NCBI RefSeq assembly: GCF_000015765.1
Contig: NC_008942.1
Span: forward strand, 1,379,921 to 1,443,920
Source of the DNA: Methanocorpusculum labreanum Z
GTDB taxonomy: Archaea; Halobacteriota; Methanomicrobia; Methanomicrobiales; Methanocorpusculaceae
DNA length: 64,000 bases
Reading direction: 5' to 3'
The first letter of the stretch is position 1, and each line of letters opens with the position of its first letter. The translations under genes and the position numbers were made by a program. Positions 3,314 to 24,427 of the stretch are shown here, piece after piece. The notes under the pieces were generated by a model. The model saw nothing but the letters and a program-made list of their open reading frames with translations. It did not search any database and was not told the DNA's origin.

Positions 3314-3852
3314 TGAAAGTCGTCGGCGTTGTCGGGTATCCCGCGAGCGGGAAGGGGGAGTTTTCCGTGATCGCGGGGCAACTTGGTATCCCCGTCGTGG
3401 TCATGGGGGATATGATCCGGAGAAAGGTCATCGAAAACGGACTGGAACTAACGGACGAGAACATCGGAGCAGCCGCACGAAACCTTCGTGCCGAACTCGG
3501 TATGGACGCGGTCGCGATATTAACGGCAGAGGAGATCGCAAAAATCAACCCGAACATTGTCGTCATCGACGGGATAAGAGGGGACGCCGAGGTTACCTAC
3601 TTCAAATCCGTCTTCAGCGACTTTTCGCTTCTGGCAATCACGGCAAGTTTTGAGACGCGCCTTCTCAGGATGAAAAACCGCGGGAGAAGCGATGATACGA
3701 CAACGCCCGAGACACTTCGCTCACGCGACGAACGCGAGGAGTCGTTTGGACTTAGCCGAGCCGTCGCTCTTGCGGATATGCGGATCGAAAACGAGTCGAG
3801 CCGCGAGGAGTTTGCCGCACGGATCCGGGATTATCTGGAGAGCCTTGCATGA
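3313..3852 (+). CDS. P-loop nucleotide kinase-like protein (UPF0200 family)
   Basis: A 179-residue protein with a Walker A GYPASGKGE at residues 8-16, the VVVMGDMIR segment near 29-37 and a Walker B-like VVIDGIRG near 78-85, in the order seen in small nucleotide and dephospho-CoA kinase-type enzymes. Archaeal members are annotated UPF0200. The physiological substrate is unknown, so no gene symbol is given. The stop codon overlaps the start of the TIM-barrel gene (ATGA overlap), placing it in a run with 2939, 3849 and rnz. Confidence 0.78.
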   Translation: MKVVGVVGYPASGKGEFSVIAGQLGIPVVVMGDMIRRKVIENGLELTDENIGAAARNLRAELGMDAVAILTAEEIAKINPNIVVIDGIRGDAEVTYFKSVFSDFSLLAITASFETRLLRMKNRGRSDDTTTPETLRSRDEREESFGLSRAVALADMRIENESSREEFAARIRDYLESLA

Positions 3853-4619
3853 AAATCTTCTTTGCCTCCTCTTCAAAAGTCTGGGAAGATCCGGAATGGG
3901 TCTCAGAGATCCCCGAGGTCGGGTTCGACGGCTGGGAGATATCGGCTGACGGAAACTACCGGCTGGATAAACCGGAGACGTTTTCCGCAGTCAAACGGGT
4001 TATCGATGAAAACGGACTTGACGTCTCCGTGCATGCCCCGTTCAGTGATCTGAATCCTGCATCCATCAATATGCCCATTTGGGAAGAAACAGTTCGACAG
4101 TTCACCGTCTGCATCGAACAGGCCGCAGAGCTCACGGACACAGTGGTCCTCCACCCGGGGTATCTCTCCCCTGTGAGCAGATTCGACGAAGCTTCCGCAT
4201 GGAACAATCACAAACAAGCATGTATCCGGCTCGGAGAAACCGCACAGCGTGTGGGTATTACCGCGTGTCTGGAAAATATGCCGAACCTCGACGACTTTTT
4301 CTGCCGTGATCCCTACGAACAGGAAGGATTCGTCGACGGTGTGCCGGGGATGGGACTCGTGCTGGATATCGGGCACGCCAACACAACCGGCAATCTGGAT
4401 GAATTCTGTAAAATCATCCTGCCAAAAGCCCACCACCTTCACATCCACGACAATCATGGAAAATACGATGAACACCTCCCTCTTGGTGGGGGCACGATAA
4501 ACTGGGATAAGATCATGCCGAGAATAGTCAAGGAATACAAAGGAAAAATCATCGTCGTCGAGGGACGCAACCCGAAAGAGGGAAAGAAAAGCCTCGAATT
4601 TTTACGGAAGTGGATCTAA
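3849..4619 (+). CDS. sugar phosphate isomerase/epimerase-like TIM-barrel protein (AP endonuclease 2 family)
   Basis: A 256-residue protein of the xylose isomerase-like/AP endonuclease family 2 superfamily. Metal-ligand positions are visible: SVHAPF, VVLHPGY, CLENMP, LVLDIGHANTTG, LHIHDNHG, and a final VVEGR, which together would hold divalent metal in the barrel. The substrate cannot be read from sequence. A paralog with the same motif order lies at 23699-24427, in the corrinoid-uptake locus. The gene overlaps its upstream neighbour by 4 nt and abuts rnz, whose ATG begins at the base after this stop. Confidence 0.8.
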   Translation: MKIFFASSSKVWEDPEWVSEIPEVGFDGWEISADGNYRLDKPETFSAVKRVIDENGLDVSVHAPFSDLNPASINMPIWEETVRQFTVCIEQAAELTDTVVLHPGYLSPVSRFDEASAWNNHKQACIRLGETAQRVGITACLENMPNLDDFFCRDPYEQEGFVDGVPGMGLVLDIGHANTTGNLDEFCKIILPKAHHLHIHDNHGKYDEHLPLGGGTINWDKIMPRIVKEYKGKIIVVEGRNPKEGKKSLEFLRKWI

Positions 4620-13757: not shown

Positions 13758-13779
13758 TATTTACTTATGTAAGTTAAAC
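13758..13779 (+). promoter_or_regulatory. putative operator/promoter element upstream of the first btuF-like gene
   Basis: ATTTACTTATGTAAGTTAAA contains a near-palindrome ACTTA-TG-TAAGT 17 bp before the ATG at 13791. TAAGTTAA recurs at 17007, and the opposite strand (TAAGTAAATAAAT) resembles motifs at 14909 and 21493. A regulator site is inferred; it may be only promoter-type AT-rich DNA. Confidence 0.4.
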
Positions 13780-13790
13780 CACAAGTAACA

Positions 13791-14798
13791 ATGAAACAGG
13801 TACGAATATTTCTGATTTTCCTGCTGGCCCTTGCCGTATTTTCCGGCTCTGCCCTTGGATGGACCCCGGTAACCATCACCGACGACTCAGGCTTTGAATC
13901 GATAATAGAGAGTCAGCCCGAGACGATCGTCTCTCTTGCCCCGACAAACACGGAGATTATCTTTGCTCTCGGACTTGGGGACAAGGTGGTGGGCGTCACT
14001 GAATACTGCAACTATCCGGAAGAAGCCCTGACAAAACCGAAAATGGGTGGATATTCTACAATTAACGTGGAAAAAATCGTTGCAGCAAATCCGGATATCA
14101 TCTTTGCCAACCCGAAAAACGGACAGGAAAATATAGATTCTCTCCGCCAGCTTGGATACAAGGTCATCGTAATTCAGTCTGACAGCGTAGCGGGAACCTA
14201 TGATGCGATCCGGATGATCGGAACCTGCACCGGTACAACCACCGAAGCGGATTCAATCATATCCGACATGCAGACCCGTATCCAGGCAATAACGGATAAA
14301 CTTACAGATATTACGGTAAGACCAACGGTTATGCACGCAATGAGTGTTGAGTCGTTTTGGGTTTCGGGAAATAATACATTTCAGAACGAACTGATCACGC
14401 TTGCCGGCGGAACTAATGCCTTTTCTGACGTAGATGGCTGGGGCGTGGTCACGCTCGAAAAACTGCTCACAACCGATCCGGAGATCATTCTGGTTGATTC
14501 CGGTTCAAAGATGGGAACTATCGGTGAAAACACACTGCAGAAAGCGTTCCTAACCGAACCGCAGCTCAGCGGGATTACTGCAGTAAAGAATAATGCAGTC
14601 TATGTTATGGATTCGGATACCTTCGATAGAGGGGGACCGAGGATCGTTATTTCCTTAGAGCAGCTTGCCCAGATCCTCCATCCGGAGATCTTCGGCGAGT
14701 ATGCCGAACCCGGATCGACCGCGGCTTCCCCCGGGTTTGGTACGGTCCTGATCATTGCCGGACTTATCGGCGGTCTCTTTGTCTGCAGGCGGATCTAA
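13791..14798 (+). CDS. cell-surface BtuF-like corrinoid-binding protein of an ABC transporter, PGF-type C-terminus
   Basis: A 335-residue class III substrate-binding protein: signal peptide (about 1-23), then a BtuF/FepB-type bilobed domain with IVSLAPTNTEIIFALGLGDK, VVGVTEYCNYPEEA, VNVEKIVAANPDIIFA and, late, WGVVTLEKLLTTDPEII. The C-terminus SPGFGTVLIIAGLIGGLFVC plus basic residues matches the PGF-CTERM archaeosortase signal, so it is probably lipid-anchored on the outer face. It would hand a corrinoid (or possibly a siderophore) to BtuC/BtuD at 21529-23702. A close paralog of the binding domain at 14975, indicating duplication. It lies 110 bp after pheT with its own promoter. Confidence 0.85.
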   Translation: MKQVRIFLIFLLALAVFSGSALGWTPVTITDDSGFESIIESQPETIVSLAPTNTEIIFALGLGDKVVGVTEYCNYPEEALTKPKMGGYSTINVEKIVAANPDIIFANPKNGQENIDSLRQLGYKVIVIQSDSVAGTYDAIRMIGTCTGTTTEADSIISDMQTRIQAITDKLTDITVRPTVMHAMSVESFWVSGNNTFQNELITLAGGTNAFSDVDGWGVVTLEKLLTTDPEIILVDSGSKMGTIGENTLQKAFLTEPQLSGITAVKNNAVYVMDSDTFDRGGPRIVISLEQLAQILHPEIFGEYAEPGSTAASPGFGTVLIIAGLIGGLFVCRRI

Positions 14799-14822
14799 TC
14801 TTCCTGGTTTATCCCCAGTTTC

Positions 14823-14829
14823 TTTTTTT
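14823..14829 (+). terminator. oligo-T terminator after the first btuF-like gene
   Basis: Seven T residues 25 nt after the stop, indicating a separate transcript from the next gene. Confidence 0.45.
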
Positions 14830-14906
14830 ATCCCTATGCCGATTTTGTGAGAGAGAAAGGCCTGACACTTCAGCGGATGCAGAAACATATTATAAAGCAA
14901 TATATA

Positions 14907-14921
14907 TGTAAGTAAAATAAA
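14907..14921 (+). promoter_or_regulatory. putative operator/promoter element upstream of the toroid-BtuF fusion gene
   Basis: Contains TAAGTAAAATAAA (14909-14921), identical over 13 bases to the reverse strand at 21493-21505 before btuC. It sits beside a TATA-like TATATATG, about 55-65 bp before the start codon. A shared regulator site is inferred. Confidence 0.4.
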
Positions 14922-14974
14922 TTTTATTAAGGAAAGACATTTATGTTATATATTTTCCATGCCGGAAGATGATC

Positions 14975-16957
14975 ATGAAACCGAAAATATCCCTCATATT
15001 AATTGTACTGCTTCTCTCTCTCATTACTGTGTGCGGTACATCTTCGGCTTCATCCCCAGATGTTGATGAAGCTATACAAAGTGCACTTGATTACATTGCT
15101 GCCTCACAATTCCCAGACGGAGGTTTTGCGGAACCCAGCATGGTAGAAGGATCGATCGGCACCACATGGTTTGCCGTCACGGCAATTTCTTCAGCAGGAG
15201 AAGACCCGCAAACCTGGAGAGTGAATGAAAATTCCCCCCTCGATTACTGGAATTCAATTAAGGATGACGCGGATGGAACGGGAGAGATGGCAAAGAAAAT
15301 CACCTATCTTGTTCAGTTCGGAGTAGACCCTCACGATTATAACGGCCATAACTATGTGACCGATCTAAAGTCAAAGGTAAAATCCAGCGGAGAAATCGGC
15401 GACTTCATCTATACAACCTACTGGGGTATCTTCGGACTTGTTGCCACCGGTGAAGATGTCAGCACATCTGTTGCGTGGTTAAAACAACAGCAGCAGGATG
15501 ACGGAGGATTTGCCTGGGCTGAAGGCGGTGTTTCTGACAGTGACGACACAGCAGCATCGATAATGGCACTCATAGCTGGGGGAGTGAGCCCGAATGATCC
15601 GGTCATCACCAATGCAATCCAATATCTTCGTGATGTTCAGGAGCCTACTGGAGGATTCAACTACGGCTATTATTCTGAGAGCAACCTTGCTTCAACGGCA
15701 TGGGTAATTCAGGCACTCGCAGCCTGCGGAGTTGACCCTCTGACAGTTACCAATAATGGAAACAATCCGATTGATTATCTCCTCTCTCTCCAGCAGGCTG
15801 ACGGTTCATTCAAATATACCGAATATGTTGTAGACAGCCCGGTAAGTATGACGGCTCGCGCGGTGACTGCCTTGAGTGGTAAATCCTACCCGATCATGCC
15901 GCTCCAGACGGGATATGATATTAGAAGCAGTACGTATGCGGATGTAATATCCAAAACACCCGTGCCGACCGCATCTCCTGAAACTACACCTACCCCGACA
16001 TCCACAAAACCAACCGGAAAATGGAATCCGGTCACAATTACCGATGACTACGGTTACACAGTAACTATTACCGAGGAACCATCACGAATCATATCGCTTG
16101 CTCCGGCTAATACCGAAATTTTGTTTGCGCTTGGTCTTAATGACTCAATCATCGGCGTAACCGAATATTGCAACTATCCTGAGGAGGCAGCAACAAAACC
16201 CATTATTGGCGGTTATACCACGGTGAACGTTGAACGTGTGATTACCCAGGACCCTGATCTCATCTTTGCCTATTATGGGAACGGGGAAGACCTGATAAAT
16301 CATCTGAGAAATCTTGGATATCCTGTTATCACACTGAACTCGGACAGTATCGACGGCACGCTGCATGACATAGAAATTGTCGGGCAGGCAACCGGAAAAA
16401 CGACAGAAGCTCAAGAACTTGTTGACAATATGCAAGGCCGAATAGAGGACGTAAAAGAAAAACTGAAGAACGTTACAACTGCACCGCGGACGATTCACTG
16501 TATGTGGACGGATCCGTTATGGGTCTCGGGAAACAACACGTTTCAGGATGAGATGATCAAAATCGCCGGCGGCACTAATGCATTCAATGATGTTGAAGGT
16601 TGGGGTGTAGTAACACTGGAAAAACTTCTGACCACGGATCCGGAGATCATTATTGTTGATTCCGGTATGGGAATGGGAGAAGGAGGTACTGACATTCTGA
16701 AAAATTACTTTGAGGAGGAAGCAAGGCTGCAGACCCTTTCAGCAGTGAAAAATAATCAGGTTTATGTAATAAATGCAGATATTATGGACCGAGGAGGCCC
16801 TCGAATTGTAGATTGTATTGAGACACTGGCTAAAATTGAGCACCCGGAACTTTTTGGCGCGCAGGAAGATAATACATCATCCGCGTCATCACCCGGATTT
16901 TCGATTATTATAACATGTGCAGCAGTTTGCGGAATATTTTTCTTCCGAAAAAGGTGA
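14975..16957 (+). CDS. surface protein: intrinsic-factor-like alpha/alpha toroid fused to a BtuF-like corrinoid-binding domain
   Basis: A 660-residue secreted protein. Order: signal peptide (1-25); an alpha/alpha toroid of prenyltransferase/squalene-oxidase-type repeats at about 28-310, with QFPDGGF, QQDDGGFAW, TGGFNYG and QQADGSFKY motifs; a Thr/Pro linker (TPVPTASPETTPTPTSTKPT, about 325-350); a BtuF-like domain at about 352-635 nearly colinear with the 13791 protein; and a PGF-type C-terminus SSPGFSIIITCAAVCGIFFF plus RKR. The same toroid fold forms the alpha domain of animal intrinsic factor and transcobalamin. Together with the BtuF half and the BtuC/BtuD genes downstream, corrinoid capture is the best guess. 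Start at ATG 14975 because GGAAGATGA precedes it; ATG 14969 is the alternative. Confidence 0.8.
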   Translation: MKPKISLILIVLLLSLITVCGTSSASSPDVDEAIQSALDYIAASQFPDGGFAEPSMVEGSIGTTWFAVTAISSAGEDPQTWRVNENSPLDYWNSIKDDADGTGEMAKKITYLVQFGVDPHDYNGHNYVTDLKSKVKSSGEIGDFIYTTYWGIFGLVATGEDVSTSVAWLKQQQQDDGGFAWAEGGVSDSDDTAASIMALIAGGVSPNDPVITNAIQYLRDVQEPTGGFNYGYYSESNLASTAWVIQALAACGVDPLTVTNNGNNPIDYLLSLQQADGSFKYTEYVVDSPVSMTARAVTALSGKSYPIMPLQTGYDIRSSTYADVISKTPVPTASPETTPTPTSTKPTGKWNPVTITDDYGYTVTITEEPSRIISLAPANTEILFALGLNDSIIGVTEYCNYPEEAATKPIIGGYTTVNVERVITQDPDLIFAYYGNGEDLINHLRNLGYPVITLNSDSIDGTLHDIEIVGQATGKTTEAQELVDNMQGRIEDVKEKLKNVTTAPRTIHCMWTDPLWVSGNNTFQDEMIKIAGGTNAFNDVEGWGVVTLEKLLTTDPEIIIVDSGMGMGEGGTDILKNYFEEEARLQTLSAVKNNQVYVINADIMDRGGPRIVDCIETLAKIEHPELFGAQEDNTSSASSPGFSIIITCAAVCGIFFFRKR

Positions 16958-17004
16958 TTCGTGCAGAAAATATATACAATTATTTTTAAGATTATTTCAC
17001 ACCC

Positions 17005-17040
17005 CATAAGTTAATTTTTTGTCATTATATAAATTTAAAT
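17005..17040 (+). promoter_or_regulatory. putative promoter of the giant surface-protein gene
   Basis: Contains CATAAGTTAATTT (TAAGTTAA shared with 13770) followed by a strong TATA-like TTATATAAATTTAAAT at 17025-17040, about 65-75 bp before the first ATG. The surrounding 140-bp gap is very AT-rich and holds no gene. Confidence 0.4.
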
Positions 17041-17101
17041 TTCTTTTAAAATAATTATTTTAATATAATATCAATTAAGTACACTTCAACATACTGAGTT
17101 G

Positions 17102-20100
17102 ATGTGTATGAAAAAAATGCGTGAATTTCTCTATTTGTTGTTTATCATCGTCCTGATGATATGTACTATTGGCGTTGCATCTGCAGATGAACCAACAGGG
17201 CCAACGTCAGATAATGTCAGGATGCATATCTCTGTTGATGGAGGCATCGACAGTACATCTGCTGTACATGACAACAGATTGTTTATTGCAAACTGGAAAA
17301 GTATGGACTTCTCCACCACAAATGCGATGGGAGTTTTCTGTTTTGATTTAACCAATGGAGACCTGATATGGTTCCGGTCCATCGGGGAAGTGTTGTCCGA
17401 AATAACGGTTGCAGATGGACAAGTCTTTGCTGGTACAAAATCAGGAGCATTGTTTTGTCTTGATGAAGATACAGGAAATACTGTGTGGAGTGTGACCGGC
17501 ATTACAGCCGGATATTGGGGTCTGACAGGGGCCCCTCTCGTGAATGATGGTGTGGTCTATGTTACGAGCCCTACGAAGCACCAGCTTATGGGATATGACA
17601 CCAGAAATGGCAATCTTGTTTTTCAACGCGGGCTTGGGTCAAGCGGGGGAATTATCTTTACCTCACCAACACTTTCATCCTCAAACAATCTGCTTGTGAT
17701 GGATGATACCGGAATTCTTGAAATATCTCCGGCAAACGATCTGGTTAATTCCTACACACTCCCATCAGCCATTACAACCGGCAGTTCGATCGTGGCACAC
17801 GGGAACGCAGTTTATCTTAATGCAAACGGCATTCTGTACCGAATAAACACGATCGGAGAATGGACCGAGGCATGGAATGTCTCCACGCTCACTTCGACCA
17901 CACCTGTCGTAACCGACTCGGCCGTATATGTTTCCCAGGGAGGGACCCTGGCAGCATATGATATTACTTCAGGAGAGGCACTTGATGGATTTACTACGCA
18001 TGTAAGCGGAGGATCCAGCAGCTATCTCAATCCAGTGCTTGCGGGAAATACAATTTATTATGCAATGAATGCACATTGCGGAAAAGTTTTTGCAATAAAT
18101 GCAACAACAGGGGCAGAAGAATGGAACTTCAGTCTTCCGGAGAGCGGAAATCCTGGAGAAGACTACACATTCTTTGCATCCTCTCCAGTAGTGTACGGTG
18201 AAAATCTGTTCATCGGTTCAGAAGGAGCTGGATTTTATGTCATTGGAGAGGGGGATCTTATCGAAATCGACAAAACAAATGCCGCTGATCAGCCATATGT
18301 TCCCCCCGCCCCAATGACAGTGCTCTACGAGGGAACAGTACGTCTGGTGAATACCTCGGAAGGAGTGACGGTTAAAGATGCGCTCGATGCGGCAGTGTCG
18401 GCAGGAGGGTTCACCTATAATCTCACCGAATATGATACGATAAAAGACATCAATGGAATAGAAAATGCAGAGGACTGGTCGCATTCGTGGATGACCACAT
18501 ACTACAACAATAACGAAATACCGGTTTACAGCGTGCTTGACCCGGTAGTCGCCGGAGCCACCATTTCACTTCATTATGATGAGCTTGATGCATCGTGGAA
18601 TGTTGTAGGAACCCAGTATCTCGTGAATGTAACCGTAGGGAATATCAATGAACCAGCACCGTGGACAGTCATCTACGATGACACGATCGATCTCACAAAC
18701 ACATCCACGGGAGTGACGGTAAAGGATGCGCTCGATGCAGCAGTTTCGGCAGGAGGGTTCACCTATAACCTCACCGAATATGATACGATAAAAGACATCA
18801 ATGGAATAGAAAATGCAGAGGACTGGTCGCATTCGTGGATGACCACATACTACAACAATAATGACACCTCGGTCTACAGCGTGCTTGACCCGGTAGTCGC
18901 CGGAGCCACCATTTCACTCCATTATGATGAGCTCGACGCATCGTGGAATGTTGTCGGAACCCAGTATCTCGTGAATGTAACCGTAGGGAATATCGATGAA
19001 CCAGCACCGTGGACGATCATCTACGATGACACGGTCAATCTGACGAATTCTTCAACGGGAGTGACGGTAAAGGATGCACTCGATGCGGCAGTGTCGGCAG
19101 GAGGGTTCACCTATAACCTCACCGAATATGATACGATAAAAGACATCAATGGAATAGAAAATGCAGAGGATTGGTCGCATTCGTGGATGACCACATATTA
19201 CAACAATAACGAAATACCGGTCTACAGCGTTCTTGACCCGGTAGTCGCGGGAGCAACTATTTCACTCCATTATGATGAGTTCGATGCATCGTGGAATGTG
19301 ATAGGAACGGAATATATGGTCAATGTTACGGTAAACAGCATTTCAGACCTCAGCATCACAAATCCATCAACGATGGTCACGGGAGCATCTGCTGTCTTTA
19401 CTGCCCTCTCCAATTACCCGGGAAATACCACATATTCGTGGGACTTTGGCGACAATACCACCGTTGTTGAAACAAAATCCTCAGGCGTTGCCTCTACTGT
19501 TGATAAAATCTATACAAATGCCGGGACTAAAATCATCACCGTAACTGCGGAATATGATAATCGATCAGTAACAAACAGCGCTGAAATAATTGTAACAACA
19601 CCGCCATCAGCATTCGACGAATCCAACAACCTCGAAGCAAAACTTACCGGGGACTCAATCCCGGACACAACCCATATCTTCTTTACTGGGACAGATGTTA
19701 CTAACGCATCAAATGTTACGATAAGCATCTCCAGATATCAGAATCAAAGTTCAATTTCCGATGATGAGTGGCAGAATATTCAGACAAACTACACCCTACC
19801 AAACTCAAACGAAAAACCTCTCTTCATCTTAGAGATAGACTCGTCAAATGCATATGGGGTAAACAACATCCATCAGCTTAACAACTACGCCCGCCTTTCC
19901 ATTCGTCTTGCCATTGATTACGCCAATGCATCGAACGTGAGTTTCTATCGATATGTTGACGGCTCGAACGGTTATGAGCAGCTGCATTACACGATTGGAA
20001 ATGTGGCTCCGGGATGGGTGGAATTCCTTGTAGACATCCCGGGATTCTCAACAATCCTTGCAGCAATAGATGAGATCCCGGCAGATTCCAGAACAACACC

Positions 20101-20818
20101 GGTTTCATCAACGGGACCTGTGGCAAATCTCGCAACTATCAAGTATAAAACCATATATTACGGCACTATCACCGTTGATCCGGGATCATTCACCTACACA
20201 ACCACAATGGACGATAAAACATTCATCGTAAACAACCTGAGTGTTTTCGGGATACTGCATGCATCAGGAATGAATCTCCAGACAAAAGAGTGGCCAGGCG
20301 GAATCTATGTTCATTCCATCAATGGAATCGCTCAGGATGAAAATCTCAACGGGTGGCTGTATCAGGTAAACGGTCTGACAACAAGCCAGATGTCAAATAA
20401 CTACATGGTCCATGACGGAGATAAAATCGTCTGGTATTATAGTGAGAGTATGGCGTCAATACCGGAGACAAGTCAGTATGCCTACGGATTCATCGTAAAG
20501 GTCAAAGCATCCGCGGTGCCGCTGCTTAATCTTTCAGCGGCAGAAACGCCGACAATCAATCTTGGAATGCCTGAGGGCGTCACCATCAGCAGTGGGATCC
20601 CGCAGAGAATCACGGTCGACACCTCAATCACACAGGCAGGTGGGTTTGTCAACATTACCGAACACACAATAATAATTACCGAACCCGGTCTTCAGATGAC
20701 CATCCCAGTAAAGAATCTCATCAGGAGTGATGAGATAGTCACGGCTGAAATCCAGAACATGACTGCAGAACTTGTACCTGCTGCAGGCAAAATCAAAACA
20801 TCCGGAATAGAGGTGTAA
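17102..20818 (+). CDS. giant modular secreted protein: beta-propeller, three near-identical DUF4430-like repeats, PKD domain, C-terminal DUF4430
   Basis: About 1238 residues. Signal peptide (1-29); PQQ-like beta-propeller at about 35-395 (GVFCFDLTNGDLIWF, GALFCLDEDTGNTVW, GKVFAINATTGAEEW); three tandem 116-residue units at about 405-752 with VTVKDALDAA, INGIENAEDW and VVAGATISLHY; a PKD domain at about 755-830 (TYSWDFGDNTT); a region like the PGF-pre-PGF domain at about 840-995 (DTTHIFFTGTDV, GWVEFLVDIPGFSTI); and a clear DUF4430 module at about 1010-1130 (NGWLYQVNG, VHDGDKIVWYY). DUF4430 is the beta domain of intrinsic factor/transcobalamin. There is no C-terminal anchor. Many NxS/T sequons. 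Start uncertain: ATG 17102 or 17108, the signal peptide favouring either. Confidence 0.8.
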   Translation: MCMKKMREFLYLLFIIVLMICTIGVASADEPTGPTSDNVRMHISVDGGIDSTSAVHDNRLFIANWKSMDFSTTNAMGVFCFDLTNGDLIWFRSIGEVLSEITVADGQVFAGTKSGALFCLDEDTGNTVWSVTGITAGYWGLTGAPLVNDGVVYVTSPTKHQLMGYDTRNGNLVFQRGLGSSGGIIFTSPTLSSSNNLLVMDDTGILEISPANDLVNSYTLPSAITTGSSIVAHGNAVYLNANGILYRINTIGEWTEAWNVSTLTSTTPVVTDSAVYVSQGGTLAAYDITSGEALDGFTTHVSGGSSSYLNPVLAGNTIYYAMNAHCGKVFAINATTGAEEWNFSLPESGNPGEDYTFFASSPVVYGENLFIGSEGAGFYVIGEGDLIEIDKTNAADQPYVPPAPMTVLYEGTVRLVNTSEGVTVKDALDAAVSAGGFTYNLTEYDTIKDINGIENAEDWSHSWMTTYYNNNEIPVYSVLDPVVAGATISLHYDELDASWNVVGTQYLVNVTVGNINEPAPWTVIYDDTIDLTNTSTGVTVKDALDAAVSAGGFTYNLTEYDTIKDINGIENAEDWSHSWMTTYYNNNDTSVYSVLDPVVAGATISLHYDELDASWNVVGTQYLVNVTVGNIDEPAPWTIIYDDTVNLTNSSTGVTVKDALDAAVSAGGFTYNLTEYDTIKDINGIENAEDWSHSWMTTYYNNNEIPVYSVLDPVVAGATISLHYDEFDASWNVIGTEYMVNVTVNSISDLSITNPSTMVTGASAVFTALSNYPGNTTYSWDFGDNTTVVETKSSGVASTVDKIYTNAGTKIITVTAEYDNRSVTNSAEIIVTTPPSAFDESNNLEAKLTGDSIPDTTHIFFTGTDVTNASNVTISISRYQNQSSISDDEWQNIQTNYTLPNSNEKPLFILEIDSSNAYGVNNIHQLNNYARLSIRLAIDYANASNVSFYRYVDGSNGYEQLHYTIGNVAPGWVEFLVDIPGFSTILAAIDEIPADSRTTPVSSTGPVANLATIKYKTIYYGTITVDPGSFTYTTTMDDKTFIVNNLSVFGILHASGMNLQTKEWPGGIYVHSINGIAQDENLNGWLYQVNGLTTSQMSNNYMVHDGDKIVWYYSESMASIPETSQYAYGFIVKVKASAVPLLNLSAAETPTINLGMPEGVTISSGIPQRITVDTSITQAGGFVNITEHTIIITEPGLQMTIPVKNLIRSDEIVTAEIQNMTAELVPAAGKIKTSGIEV
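18314..18661 (+). repeat. 348-bp coding tandem repeat, unit 1
   Basis: In-frame unit encoding 116 residues (from MTVLYEGTV to GNINEPAP). It starts exactly 348 bp before unit 2; long stretches around 18405-18500 are nearly identical in all three units. Confidence 0.9.
18662..19009 (+). repeat. 348-bp coding tandem repeat, unit 2
   Basis: In-frame copy beginning WTVIYDDTIDLTN. It differs from unit 1 mainly in the first 20 residues and at NNNDTSVYS. Confidence 0.9.
19010..19357 (+). repeat. 348-bp coding tandem repeat, unit 3
   Basis: In-frame copy beginning WTIIYDDTVNLTN. Its last 30 residues diverge (DEFDASWNVIGTEYMVNV) where it joins the PKD domain. Confidence 0.88.
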
Positions 20819-20820
20819 AA

Positions 20821-21471
20821 ATGTCGAAAAATCACACAAAACAAATTTTTATCCTGCTGCTCATCCTCTTTGCAGTTTTTTCATATACCGGGGTTGCGAC
20901 CGCAGAAAATGAAACCACAGAGATCTCACCGATAGTATTCCTTACCTTTGATAAAATCCCGCAGGATATTATCAGCGGCACTGAAATTACAATCAACGTA
21001 TCATCGGAAATCAACCAATCCATCCTGACAACGTTAAAGGATATTGACGGAATGTCCATAACCAATATTGCATATCTGGTAAACATAACTTCAAACAAAC
21101 TGGATGTCACGAATCTTACCGGCGTGGCCATTCAGCTTCCGGTATCGCATGCCTGGACAGTAAACCAATCAGATATACGCGTGATTACGATCATGAATCA
21201 GACGGTGTCCGTAATCAATACATCATTGACAGACATAAATGACAATAATATGGATGTGTTCCAGGTAAACCTGACATCATTGCCGGATGAACTTCTCCTG
21301 GTCTCGATAACAAACACCATCATGCCCGACACACCGGTTGCAACACCCACCCATACTGCAGAAACCCAAACACAAACAGTAACACAGACTCCCGCATCTC
21401 CTGCCCCACTCCTTTGGACAGTTGGGTGCCTTGGAATCGGAATTCTTTTCGCAGCCCGCAGACGAATATGA
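20821..21471 (+). CDS. small secreted surface protein with C-terminal anchor, partner of the giant protein (inferred)
   Basis: A 216-residue protein starting 3 nt after the stop of the giant gene, so surely co-transcribed. Signal peptide at about 1-28; a beta-rich, Asn/Thr-rich body with many NxS/T sequons (30-170); a Thr-rich linker (TPTHTAETQTQTVTQTPASP); then APLLWTVGCLGIGILFAARR, one hydrophobic helix and an Arg cluster resembling an archaeosortase signal with SPAP instead of PGF. No family recognised. Because the 1238-residue protein lacks an anchor and this one has one, it may tether that protein to the envelope; this is inference from order only. Confidence 0.7.
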   Translation: MSKNHTKQIFILLLILFAVFSYTGVATAENETTEISPIVFLTFDKIPQDIISGTEITINVSSEINQSILTTLKDIDGMSITNIAYLVNITSNKLDVTNLTGVAIQLPVSHAWTVNQSDIRVITIMNQTVSVINTSLTDINDNNMDVFQVNLTSLPDELLLVSITNTIMPDTPVATPTHTAETQTQTVTQTPASPAPLLWTVGCLGIGILFAARRRI

Positions 21472-21492
21472 AAAGACATCAAATCACACACC

Positions 21493-21505
21493 TTTATTTT
21501 ACTTA
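21493..21505 (-). promoter_or_regulatory. putative operator/promoter element upstream of btuC
   Basis: The reverse strand reads TAAGTAAAATAAA, identical to 14909-14921, placed 23-35 bp before the btuC ATG. The position also suits a promoter core, so an operator role is unproven. Confidence 0.4.
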
Positions 21506-21528
21506 ACACAAACAACATATACACAATT

Positions 21529-22476
21529 ATGCTTCGCCACCCCGTTCTTCTCCTACCCGTGCTTCTCATCGTTCTTCTGATAAGCATTGTCCTCACCACC
21601 TGTATTGGAGTGTCGGGGTTTTCTCTTCTCACCTTTGACTCGGAGATGATTCGAAAACTGATTTTTGAAGTCAGGCTCCCGCGGGTGATTGGGGCACTTC
21701 TGGTAGGTGGGGGGCTTGCCGCCGCCGGCTGCGTGATGCAGGGACTTTTCAGAAACCCAATGGCGGACCCATATATCATCGGAACTTCGACCGGCGGCGC
21801 TCTTGGGGCGGCCTGCGCGATTGTTTTTCTCGGAGGATTACTCATGCCGCTCTTTGCCTTTATCGGAGCAGCCGCTTCAACGATCACCGTATATCTCATA
21901 TCTCAGAGGAACGGACGGATGGCAGTCGAAACCCTGTTATTATCGGGAATCGCAGTTTCGCTTTTCCTTTCTGCCATGCTCTCCTTCATCATGTACTTGT
22001 CCGGAAACAGTCTTCACCAGATCATGTTCTGGATGATGGGCGGATTCTGGAACATGTACTGGGACGATGTAGGGCTCGCGCTCTTAATTCCGGCGGCAGC
22101 GGTCATTCTCTACCTCTTTTCCCGTGATCTGAACGTTATGGCACTTGGAGAGGAGGAGGCGATCCATCTTGGCGTGAACACGGAACGAACCAAAAAAATT
22201 CTGCTCATGGTAGCCACATTTATTACTGCCATCGCAGTATCCATATCAGGATGCATCGGATTTATCGGACTCATAATCCCTCACATTATGCGGATCTTCA
22301 CCGGCCCAGACCACAGAATCCTTCTTCCGGCATCCGTGCTGGCAGGAGCCATTCTCCTCATGTGGGCTGATACCTTTGCCAGAACACTTCCCGTCGAGAT
22401 CCCCGTTGGGATCGTTACTGCATTTCTCGGAGCTCCGTTCTTTATTTACCTGCTTCGCAGGAGGACGCGGGTATGA
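21529..22476 (+). CDS. btuC: BtuC/FecCD-type ABC transporter permease (corrinoid uptake)
   Basis: A 315-residue integral membrane protein with about nine or ten hydrophobic helices. FecCD-family signatures: IRKLIFEVRLPRVIGALLVG, AAGCVMQGLFRNPMADPYIIG, the cytoplasmic-loop LGEEEAIHLGVNTERTKK that contacts the ATPase, and the C-terminal ISGCIGFIGLIIPHIMR. It forms the channel for the corrinoid passed on by the BtuF-like proteins. The next gene starts inside its last codon (ATGA overlap). Vitamin B12 rather than siderophore is favoured by the toroid and DUF4430 neighbours, not by the permease itself. Confidence 0.88.
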   Translation: MLRHPVLLLPVLLIVLLISIVLTTCIGVSGFSLLTFDSEMIRKLIFEVRLPRVIGALLVGGGLAAAGCVMQGLFRNPMADPYIIGTSTGGALGAACAIVFLGGLLMPLFAFIGAAASTITVYLISQRNGRMAVETLLLSGIAVSLFLSAMLSFIMYLSGNSLHQIMFWMMGGFWNMYWDDVGLALLIPAAAVILYLFSRDLNVMALGEEEAIHLGVNTERTKKILLMVATFITAIAVSISGCIGFIGLIIPHIMRIFTGPDHRILLPASVLAGAILLMWADTFARTLPVEIPVGIVTAFLGAPFFIYLLRRRTRV

Positions 22477-23702
22477 CGCCAACGATTTCGGCAGACAATA
22501 TTTCTGTGAAATACGGGGATCATCGTGTTATCGAACAGTTCTCTCTCGCTGTTGATCAGGGCGGATTCATCGGGATCCTCGGGCCGAACGGATGCGGCAA
22601 GACAACATTTTTGCGTGCCCTTTCCAGAATATTGAAACCGGATCAGGGAGCGGTTTTCATTGAAGGCCTGGACGCAGAATCATATGATTCCCGTACTCTC
22701 GCAAAAACGATTGGGTGCGTCGGGCAGGAAACTGATGTCGCATTTCCATTCACGGTACGGGAGATCGTTTTTATGGGAAGATATCCGCATATTGGAAAAC
22801 TCGCCCCATTATCGCCAAAAGATCTGGCAATCGCCGATGAAGCGATGAAAACCACAAACACGTTTCCTCTCGCAGACAGGTTGATCACCGAGGTTTCGGG
22901 CGGAGAACGGCAACGTGTCCTGATTGCGAGAACACTGACCCAGCAGCCGAAGATCCTCCTTCTTGACGAACCAACATCCCATCTCGATATCAATCATCAG
23001 ATAGAAATCATGGACCTTATCCGGGACCTTACGCCGAAGATCACGGTCATTGGCGTCTTTCATGATCTGAATCTGGCATCGTACTTCTGTGATAGGATCG
23101 TGCTGATGAAGCAAGGTAAAATTCTCGCAGTCGGGACCCCCATGGAAGTCCTGACACCGGAAAAAATCCGGGAGAGTTTTTCAATTGGCATGATGGTGTC
23201 AATCCACCCGCTTACCGGAAAACCGCACCTCATGCCTGAGTATGGTGTTCAGCCAACACCCGCCTCCACCCGCATCCATGTGATCTCCGGAGGTGGAACG
23301 GGGACTGAGATCCTCCATACCTTATGTCTGCATGGATTTTCCGTATCTGCCGGTGTTTTGGCGGCGAACGACTCGGACTGTCTTGCAGCAGTGAAACTCG
23401 GTTTGGAAACGATCATCGAACCGCCGTTTGCCGTCGTGAGTGACAAATCAGTTCAAAAACTGAAGCTGATGCTGGCCAGCGCGGATAAAATCGTGGTCAC
23501 AGGCATGCCAGTAGGATACGGCAATCTGGCAAATCTGAAAGCTCTCACCGAAGTTTCTAAACCAGTATATCTTTTCGGGGAGGGGGACGATTACACAAAC
23601 GGCGAAGCGACACACATCCGCAGAGCCCTCATCGAAAACGAAGCAGTGATTGTACCCGGCATCACGGCCCTTATGAAGATACTGTACGCCGGAAATCCAT
23701 GA
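22473..23702 (+). CDS. btuD: BtuD-type ABC ATPase with an extra C-terminal domain
   Basis: A 409-residue protein; a plain BtuD/FecE ATPase is about 250-260. Residues 1-255 hold the ATPase: Walker A GPNGCGKTT (about 37-45), signature VSGGERQR, Walker B ILLLDEPTSHLDI, switch His in VFHDLNLASY. Residues about 265-409 form a second domain with a glycine-rich start (IHVISGGGTGTEIL) and alternating strand-helix segments (KIVVTGMPVGYGNLAN, KPVYLFGEGDDY), a Rossmann-like fold of unknown role, possibly sensing a ligand. It overlaps btuC by 4 nt and the TIM-barrel gene by 4 nt. Confidence 0.88.
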   Translation: MTPTISADNISVKYGDHRVIEQFSLAVDQGGFIGILGPNGCGKTTFLRALSRILKPDQGAVFIEGLDAESYDSRTLAKTIGCVGQETDVAFPFTVREIVFMGRYPHIGKLAPLSPKDLAIADEAMKTTNTFPLADRLITEVSGGERQRVLIARTLTQQPKILLLDEPTSHLDINHQIEIMDLIRDLTPKITVIGVFHDLNLASYFCDRIVLMKQGKILAVGTPMEVLTPEKIRESFSIGMMVSIHPLTGKPHLMPEYGVQPTPASTRIHVISGGGTGTEILHTLCLHGFSVSAGVLAANDSDCLAAVKLGLETIIEPPFAVVSDKSVQKLKLMLASADKIVVTGMPVGYGNLANLKALTEVSKPVYLFGEGDDYTNGEATHIRRALIENEAVIVPGITALMKILYAGNP

Positions 23703-24427
23703 ACGAAGTAGGCATCTCCACAAATTGCGTAATGGATCTGCCGCTTGAACGGGCACTCACCATACTGGAGCCGCTCACACATCTTGTGGAGATCCAGTGC
23801 GATGCAAATCATTCTCTCTTTCGACATGCATCCGTTCTGGATAAATTCGATCTGCGTTACACGATTCATGCACCGACTGCCGACGGGAATATTGCCGAAT
23901 CGTTTGAGCCGATCCGCAAAGCAAGCATCGCGGTGATTAAAGAAACTGCAGAAATCGCAGACTTGGTGGGCGCGAAAAAACTGGTGATCCATCCGGGATT
24001 CTGCCTTGATCCAACATGCAGGAAAGCGTCAGTCTCTGCTCTGCACAGATCGATTCAGGAGCTTGGCGATCTTCAGGAGGAGTTCTCCGTCCGGTTCGTC
24101 ATGGAAAATCTCGGATCGATGGACTGCTGCTTTTTTCAAAACACGGAACTTATCCAGGACCTTCGTGCAGCGGGACTTGGACTGGCTCTGGATGTGGGAC
24201 ATGCAAATCTTACCGGAACGCTCGATGCATTTCTCAAGGAAAAACCGGATCATTTTCATCTCCACGACAATAAAGGAATGTGCGATGAACATGCCGCTTG
24301 CGGAACGGGGATAGTGGATTTTGGAAAAATTCTTCCGGAGATCGGAGATGCGACGCTGATCCTTGAAGTTCTCAAACTCAAGGATGTCAAGCCCAGTCTG
24401 GAGTATCTGACATCTCTTGGATATTGA
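23699..24427 (+). CDS. sugar phosphate isomerase/epimerase-like TIM-barrel protein, in the corrinoid operon
   Basis: A 242-residue AP-endonuclease-2-type barrel, paralogous to 3849-4619, with the same metal-site series: TIHAPT, LVIHPGF, FVMENLGSM, LALDVGHANLTG, FHLHDNKG and final LILEVL. It is translationally coupled to btuD (ATGA overlap), so it probably works on something linked to the imported corrinoid, or is simply carried along. No substrate can be read. It lacks the 14 or so N-terminal residues that precede the first strand in its paralog. Confidence 0.78.
   Translation: MNEVGISTNCVMDLPLERALTILEPLTHLVEIQCDANHSLFRHASVLDKFDLRYTIHAPTADGNIAESFEPIRKASIAVIKETAEIADLVGAKKLVIHPGFCLDPTCRKASVSALHRSIQELGDLQEEFSVRFVMENLGSMDCCFFQNTELIQDLRAAGLGLALDVGHANLTGTLDAFLKEKPDHFHLHDNKGMCDEHAACGTGIVDFGKILPEIGDATLILEVLKLKDVKPSLEYLTSLGY

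Follow-up and report, generated by a model that had tools for sequence, protein, structure and literature searches.

A probable corrinoid-importer locus of Methanocorpusculum labreanum with a toroid-BtuF fusion and transcobalamin-like DUF4430 domains

Gene content of the locus

The stretch of Methanocorpusculum labreanum Z DNA analyzed here (the window, 64,000 nucleotides) covers positions 1,379,921–1,443,920 of a genome that consists of one contig of 1,804,962 bases. It harbors a cluster of seven genes which very probably constitutes a scavenging system for corrinoids, the vitamin B12 family, with a BtuF-BtuC-BtuD and CbiR-like core and an optional extracellular capture module built from toroid and DUF4430 domains. 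Domains and families were assigned by Pfam and NCBIfam searches of the open reading frames (ORFs) of the window, and all coordinates are window positions. The seven ORFs are found on the + strand at 13791–24427, where a previous sequence-only reading had placed them, and the family searches agree with its inventory of two BtuF-like surface proteins, a toroid fused to one of them, a huge secreted protein, a small anchored protein, BtuC, BtuD and a TIM barrel. Housekeeping genes border the cluster, with tRNA splicing endonuclease, trpS and pheT upstream and alaS downstream.

The first gene (13791–14798) encodes BtuF1, a corrinoid-type substrate-binding protein (Pfam Peripla_BP_2, 3e-41; the NCBIfam models for BtuF and for a PGF-CTERM binding protein match below their cut-offs). 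It is followed at 14969–16957 by a fusion protein of 662 amino acids (aa), in which an alpha6/alpha6 toroid domain (15056–15937; Prenyltrans, 6e-15) precedes a second binding-protein domain, BtuF2 (16088–16777; Peripla_BP_2, 7e-35). Both proteins combine a signal peptide with a tail of SPGF, a hydrophobic transmembrane stretch and an Arg/Lys end (RR in BtuF1, RKR in toroid-BtuF2), which makes anchoring to the outer face of the membrane probable. The third gene (17099–20818) encodes a secreted protein of 1239 aa, which family searches divide into a PQQ/BamB-type beta-propeller (17333–18232; PQQ_2, 6e-26), three tandem modules of 116 aa (18314–19339), a PKD domain (19355–19594; Pfam, 9e-8) and a C-terminal DUF4430 domain (20144–20494; Pfam, 4e-15). 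The small anchored protein encoded next to it (20821–21471) has a VPxxxP-CTERM-like tail. A profile built from it finds the C-terminal end of the DUF4430 proteins encoded at loci L038, L040 and L041, which marks it as a C-terminal domain that was split off from the DUF4430 protein.

The remaining genes encode the permease BtuC (21529–22476; FecCD, 2e-93; best NCBIfam model BtuC), the ATPase BtuD with a C-terminal extension (22473–23702; best NCBIfam model NF007082, corrinoid ATP-binding cassette (ABC) transporter ATPase, over residues 3–373) and a CbiR-like TIM barrel (23699–24427; AP_endonuc_2), a putative cobamide-remodelling phosphodiesterase whose gene overlaps btuD by 4 bases.

The DUF4430 and toroid domains

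The C-terminal DUF4430 domain passes the Pfam gathering cut-off (56.3 bits versus 23.8), confirming the DUF4430-type modules of the sequence-only reading at this position, whereas the three tandem modules are missed by Pfam. These modules are 86–90% identical to each other, and profile-profile comparison with DUF4430 gives a probability of 90% (E 1e-6) for them alone and of 99.5% (E 5e-23) once they are aligned with the modules of relatives, so that at the profile level they are divergent DUF4430 members. An AlphaFold2 model of the C-terminal domain (predicted local distance difference test (pLDDT) score 92.8) was compared with the whole PDB by Foldseek. The top 18 matches are all transcobalamin, haptocorrin or intrinsic factor (human, rat, bovine) or R. 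gnavus 3u7z, with probabilities of 0.99–1.00, and the 19th match falls to 0.07.

Several results on both domains weigh against a corrinoid-scavenging role. The DUF4430 superposition is loose (template modeling (TM) score ∼0.5, root-mean-square deviation 9–11 Å, E-values 0.002–0.1), and a sequence-profile search of the DUF4430 alignment against the PDB gave no significant match and did not reach transcobalamin. With such TM and E-values, the predicted likeness to the transcobalamin beta domain is a fold match and not a close superposition. The toroid, modelled with 12 helices and a pLDDT of 92, has its best Foldseek matches in squalene-hopene cyclases, other terpene cyclases and prenyltransferases, and transcobalamin is absent among the 50 matches listed. 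Pfam assigns it to Prenyltrans/SQHop_cyclase only, and a sequence-profile search of the toroid alignment against the PDB found only terpene cyclases and prenyltransferases without reaching transcobalamin. Since structure and profile searches give the same enzymes, the toroid is a member of the alpha/alpha-toroid superfamily at large, and these searches do not place it in the transcobalamin subtype. Of the two intrinsic factor-like halves that the sequence-only reading had recognized, structure prediction of the single domains therefore recovers the transcobalamin fold for the beta half, while the toroid half is nearest to terpene cyclases and prenyltransferases.

The toroid might accordingly be read as an extracytoplasmic terpene cyclase-like enzyme whose nearness to BtuF is incidental, and the squalene-hopene cyclase matches together with a DxDD-like motif (DSDDTA) in most toroids would fit such a role. 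However, Asn takes the place of the third Asp in 6 of 33 members, the strict DxDD conservation of class II terpene cyclases is lacking, and the domain is secreted. Moreover, nearly all archaeal lineages have it joined to either BtuF or DUF4430, and cobalamin riboswitches precede the bacterial toroids. We consider the enzyme explanation very improbable.

Linkage and natural fusions

Conservation was surveyed in 150 genomes of the order Methanomicrobiales (35 genera) and in 393 genomes of the phylum. The toroid is found in 46 of the 150 genomes and in 10 of the 35 genera, and every complete locus of these 10 genera carries the toroid-BtuF fusion. Toroid and strong DUF4430 matches co-occur (both in 41 genomes, toroid only in five, DUF4430 only in three, neither in 101; Fisher p 1.3e-27, uncorrected for phylogeny). 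Three of the five toroid genomes lacking a strong DUF4430 match have a small divergent DUF4430-like protein adjoining the toroid gene, and in one of the other two the toroid lies at a contig end. Across the phylum, each of the 61 close toroids lies no more than 5.7 kb from a DUF4430, at a median distance of 1.4 kb. In 32 cases, mostly from one family that matches to named contigs identify as Archaeoglobaceae, the two share a reading frame. Thus, the proposed survey for toroid-BtuF and DUF4430 genes bore out their association, and the composition of the locus is not due to chance, as the fusion recurs in all complete loci of 10 genera and DUF4430 accompanies 61 of 61 toroids.

The arrangement of the parts differs between lineages. 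In Archaeoglobus (e.g., L089:8846–11149) and Geoglobus, DUF4430 and toroid are fused and followed by BtuF; metagenome-assembled genomes (MAGs) of Methanophagales and Methanosarcinales carry DUF4430, toroid, BtuF and BtuC as separate genes; and in Methanomicrobiales the toroid is fused to BtuF with DUF4430 adjoining. Such alternate fusions, DUF4430-toroid in one lineage and toroid-BtuF in another, are classic “Rosetta stone” evidence, here from gene sequences, that DUF4430, toroid and BtuF would act together.

How closely they act together is a separate matter, and DUF4430 and the toroid could be independent surface traps in a relay, each binding a corrinoid separately, with no joint clamp. This explanation is possible, though clearly the weaker one to us. 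It is in line with the placement of the two domains on separate proteins in the M. labreanum window, with several DUF4430 copies per protein, and with the Methanocorpusculum relatives G090, G094 and G138, where a small divergent DUF4430-like protein is the only such neighbor of toroid-BtuF; moreover, the isolated human transcobalamin beta domain was crystallized with cyanocobalamin bound (5np4; PMC5599065). Independent traps are harder to reconcile with the 32 genomes in which a single protein contains the two halves, as in animals, and with the inseparability of the halves across lineages.

Two further protein types were observed around toroid loci. A second small beta-propeller protein (PQQ_2/WD40-like, ∼370 aa), absent from the M. 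labreanum locus, often follows toroid-BtuF in other Methanomicrobiales, e.g., at L063:11907–13031. Giant proteins of ∼1900–2400 aa in Methanothrix/Methanosarcinales (including loci L127 and L129) join divergent toroids with several DUF4430 domains.

Ligand and importer

The BtuF, BtuC and BtuD homologues are closest to B12 families. Among solved structures, BtuF2 matches best to V. cholerae BtuF (5ysc, E 5e-29), and E. coli BtuF follows at ∼1e-21. A staphylococcal “iron-binding protein” nearly ties at 6e-29, whereas heme and siderophore binders rank further down, the siderophore binders at 1e-9 or worse; a best match to a siderophore clade, which would have refuted the sequence-only reading, was not obtained. 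The best models of BtuC and BtuD are those for B12/corrinoid transport, although both proteins miss the NCBIfam equivalog cut-offs, which were set on other lineages.

Bacterial loci with toroid homologues (Firmicutes, Chloroflexi, Solirubrobacterales) mostly also encode a double-ATPase protein and DUF4430 proteins. Of 24 such loci, 17 have a cobalamin riboswitch, usually 50–215 bases 5′ of the first DUF4430 or toroid gene, and six of the seven riboswitch-free loci begin inside the cluster or have little or no sequence before it. Because the bacterial homologues sit under cobalamin riboswitches, the toroid/DUF4430 module appears tied to corrinoids, and these predicted elements are the most independent evidence for its ligand. 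Together with the DUF4430 fold and the 32 toroid-DUF4430 fusions, they support the original proposal of surface corrinoid capture coupled to BtuFCD. In one Firmicutes MAG (L109:12281–16737), a CbiR-like gene and btuF-btuC-btuD directly follow a riboswitch-controlled DUF4430/toroid/double-ATPase cluster, so that both transporter types are encoded at one locus.

On the other side of the balance, the riboswitch-bearing relatives are distant bacteria with ∼34% identity, not archaea, and no cobalamin riboswitch (RF00174) was found in the window or in seven archaeal loci. In addition, the M. labreanum genome encodes CbiD, and own corrin synthesis is possible; CbiD, the only pathway marker checked, is found in 126 of the 150 genomes. 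By this sole marker, corrin auxotrophy is ruled out as the reason for import in M. labreanum. CbiZ occurs in 145 of the 150 genomes, which excludes it as a discriminator of module-bearing genomes, and M. labreanum has two CbiZ-like regions. As the genome encodes CbiD and these two regions, import would serve salvage in M. labreanum, which can perhaps also make corrin itself.

The possible corrin synthesis also leaves room for another large ligand, such as heme, a further tetrapyrrole like F430, or a siderophore, as suspected for archaea by Burroughs et al. (PMC1796856). The binding-protein families overlap, given that heme IsdE/HmuT and the staphylococcal iron-binding protein also match. Such a ligand nevertheless seems unlikely in view of the B12 models that fit BtuF, BtuC and BtuD best, the transcobalamin fold of DUF4430 and the cobalamin riboswitches of the bacterial relatives. 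F430 in particular is a poor fit, since Archaeoglobus is not known to have methyl-coenzyme M (CoM) reductase, yet carries the module.

The CbiR-like protein

Mok et al. 2020 (PMC7733943) described CbiR, a cobamide-remodelling phosphodiesterase, and reported a single homologue from archaea. The M. labreanum protein resembles it in its AP endonuclease 2 superfamily membership, best NCBIfam model, conserved His/Asp/Glu residues and corrinoid-gene neighbors, and ten residues (H57, H98, E136, D165, H168, H187, D190, D196, H198, E223), all of the kind expected for the superfamily, are invariant among its relatives. The gene adjoins btuCD in other genera too. In contrast to CbiR, the protein stays under the family cut-off (53 bits on NF041277 versus 105; relatives 45–71), and it has similarly scoring paralogues. 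A gene of this type was found in 149 of the 150 genomes of the order, with two to three paralogues, and was discarded as a module-specific marker for this reason. Both points count against a firm assignment, and the CbiR identity of the 23699–24427 product is putative and unproven. A second AP endonuclease 2 TIM barrel (3849–4619; best model CbiR, 43 bits) lies ∼19 kb upstream, adjoining RNase Z and an MsvR-type regulator.

An optional capture module

The relatives G042, G030 and G078 carry pheT-btuF-(btuC)-btuD-cbiR-like-alaS at the equivalent place, with nothing matching toroid-BtuF, DUF4430 or the small gene. The btuC gene is hidden by a longer overlapping frame in the ORF listings of two of them and present in G030 (locus L132). 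The same contrast between genomes with and without the module is observed among Methanocalculus and among Methanoculleus genomes. As near relatives keep the btuF-btuC-btuD-cbiR-like locus without them, the toroid/DUF4430 genes are an optional capture module on a core importer locus.

In a midpoint-rooted tree of BtuF domains, in which some nodes are weak, standalone BtuFs cluster with the toroid-fused BtuF of their own genus, and the toroid-BtuF fusion is spread over several families. This distribution suggests that the module went through repeated duplication and loss, and a single recent insertion is not favored.

A possible split transcobalamin in archaea

The domain identities, the DUF4430 fold, linkage, natural fusions, module presence or absence and the riboswitches of the bacterial relatives are computed here, and from them we infer the ligand in M. 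labreanum, a two-half clamp, hand-over to BtuF and the CbiR activity. In the most far-reaching interpretation, to which we give a probability of roughly 55%, the locus would encode a split transcobalamin: a DUF4430 domain on a surface scaffold and a BtuF-tethered toroid would close in trans on a corrinoid, which they would hand straight to an ABC importer, as an optional high-affinity module that alternates with archaeal DUF4430-toroid fusions and with bacterial versions coupled to energy-coupling factor (ECF) transporters. In the most likely mechanism, the secreted DUF4430 protein would be held at the surface with its small anchored partner, DUF4430 and toroid would enclose the corrinoid outside the membrane, and the toroid-tethered BtuF would take it over and dock on BtuCD, which would pump it inward. 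The CbiR-like hydrolase may then strip the nucleotide loop in the cytoplasm, from where the archaeon could rebuild its own cobamide.

The locus resembles animal transcobalamin, intrinsic factor and haptocorrin, the B12 carriers of stomach and blood, in the predicted fold of the DUF4430 beta domain, in its alpha/alpha toroid partner and in the link to corrinoids. In contrast to these carriers, the two halves are on separate proteins in Methanocorpusculum and fused in reverse order in Archaeoglobales, and the M. labreanum toroid, closest to terpene-cyclase folds, sits on the membrane-anchored binding protein of an ABC importer. With the BtuCDF importer of E. coli it shares BtuC, BtuD with its extension, and BtuF, whereas the toroid-fused BtuF and DUF4430 capture proteins are additional in M. 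labreanum, which has no outer membrane or BtuB. Halobacterium also has a BtuCDF corrinoid importer. Bacteroides BtuG, a surface B12-capture lipoprotein with a beta-propeller, likewise acts ahead of an importer; this is an analogy only, since the propeller in the window matches BamB in the PDB and not BtuG.

In the relevant passages of Burroughs et al. 2007 (PMC1796856), a transcobalamin-like beta-grasp (SLBB) clade is defined, with toroid fusions in bacteria and with euryarchaeal members, and B12 scavenging is proposed; as archaea make B12, a different metabolite is suggested for the archaeal proteins. That clade and the M. labreanum locus have the same two domains in common, on secreted or anchored multi-domain proteins with propeller or Ig domains. 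It differs in its ECF-type CbiO/CbiQ neighbors, and those passages make no mention of the toroid-BtuF fusion or the coupling to BtuFCD and a CbiR-like protein. No published description of a toroid-BtuF fusion or an archaeal DUF4430-BtuFCD locus was found in the open-licence literature. The impression from the sequence that no such archaeal system had been described thus holds for the fusion and the importer coupling, but not for B12 scavenging by toroid and transcobalamin-like domains, euryarchaeal members included, which those passages already contain. New are the fusion, the split arrangement, the BtuFCD coupling and the ligand evidence.

If a split transcobalamin is indeed at work, animal B12 carriers have the same architecture as a corrinoid-uptake module of prokaryotes, and archaea gain a described surface corrinoid-capture system. 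It would explain how S-layer-coated methanogens could gather a scarce cofactor needed by their energy metabolism, and would meet the doubt raised by Burroughs et al. over the ligand of archaeal transcobalamin-like proteins with a concrete answer. Small separable protein pairs would become available for studying how toroid and DUF4430 close on B12, and the origin of the animal carriers would obtain a prokaryotic context.

Other features of the window

Upstream of btuF1 lies the palindrome TTTACTTATGTAAGTTAA (13760–13777), with a perfect core, which by its rarity and conservation is a candidate operator or promoter element of the locus. Only 0.06 matches are expected in the window at up to three mismatches, it is the sole site with at most two mismatches in the 1.8-Mb genome, and its core is kept 5′ of btuF in five relatives. 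A regulon search with the palindrome across the genome gave no further site. Half-sites resembling it were also observed 5′ of 14969 and 21529.

At 2070–2177, a tRNA of 108 bases is called by Rfam and missed by ARAGORN. It probably contains an intron, and adjoins two tandem tRNA-Asp genes.

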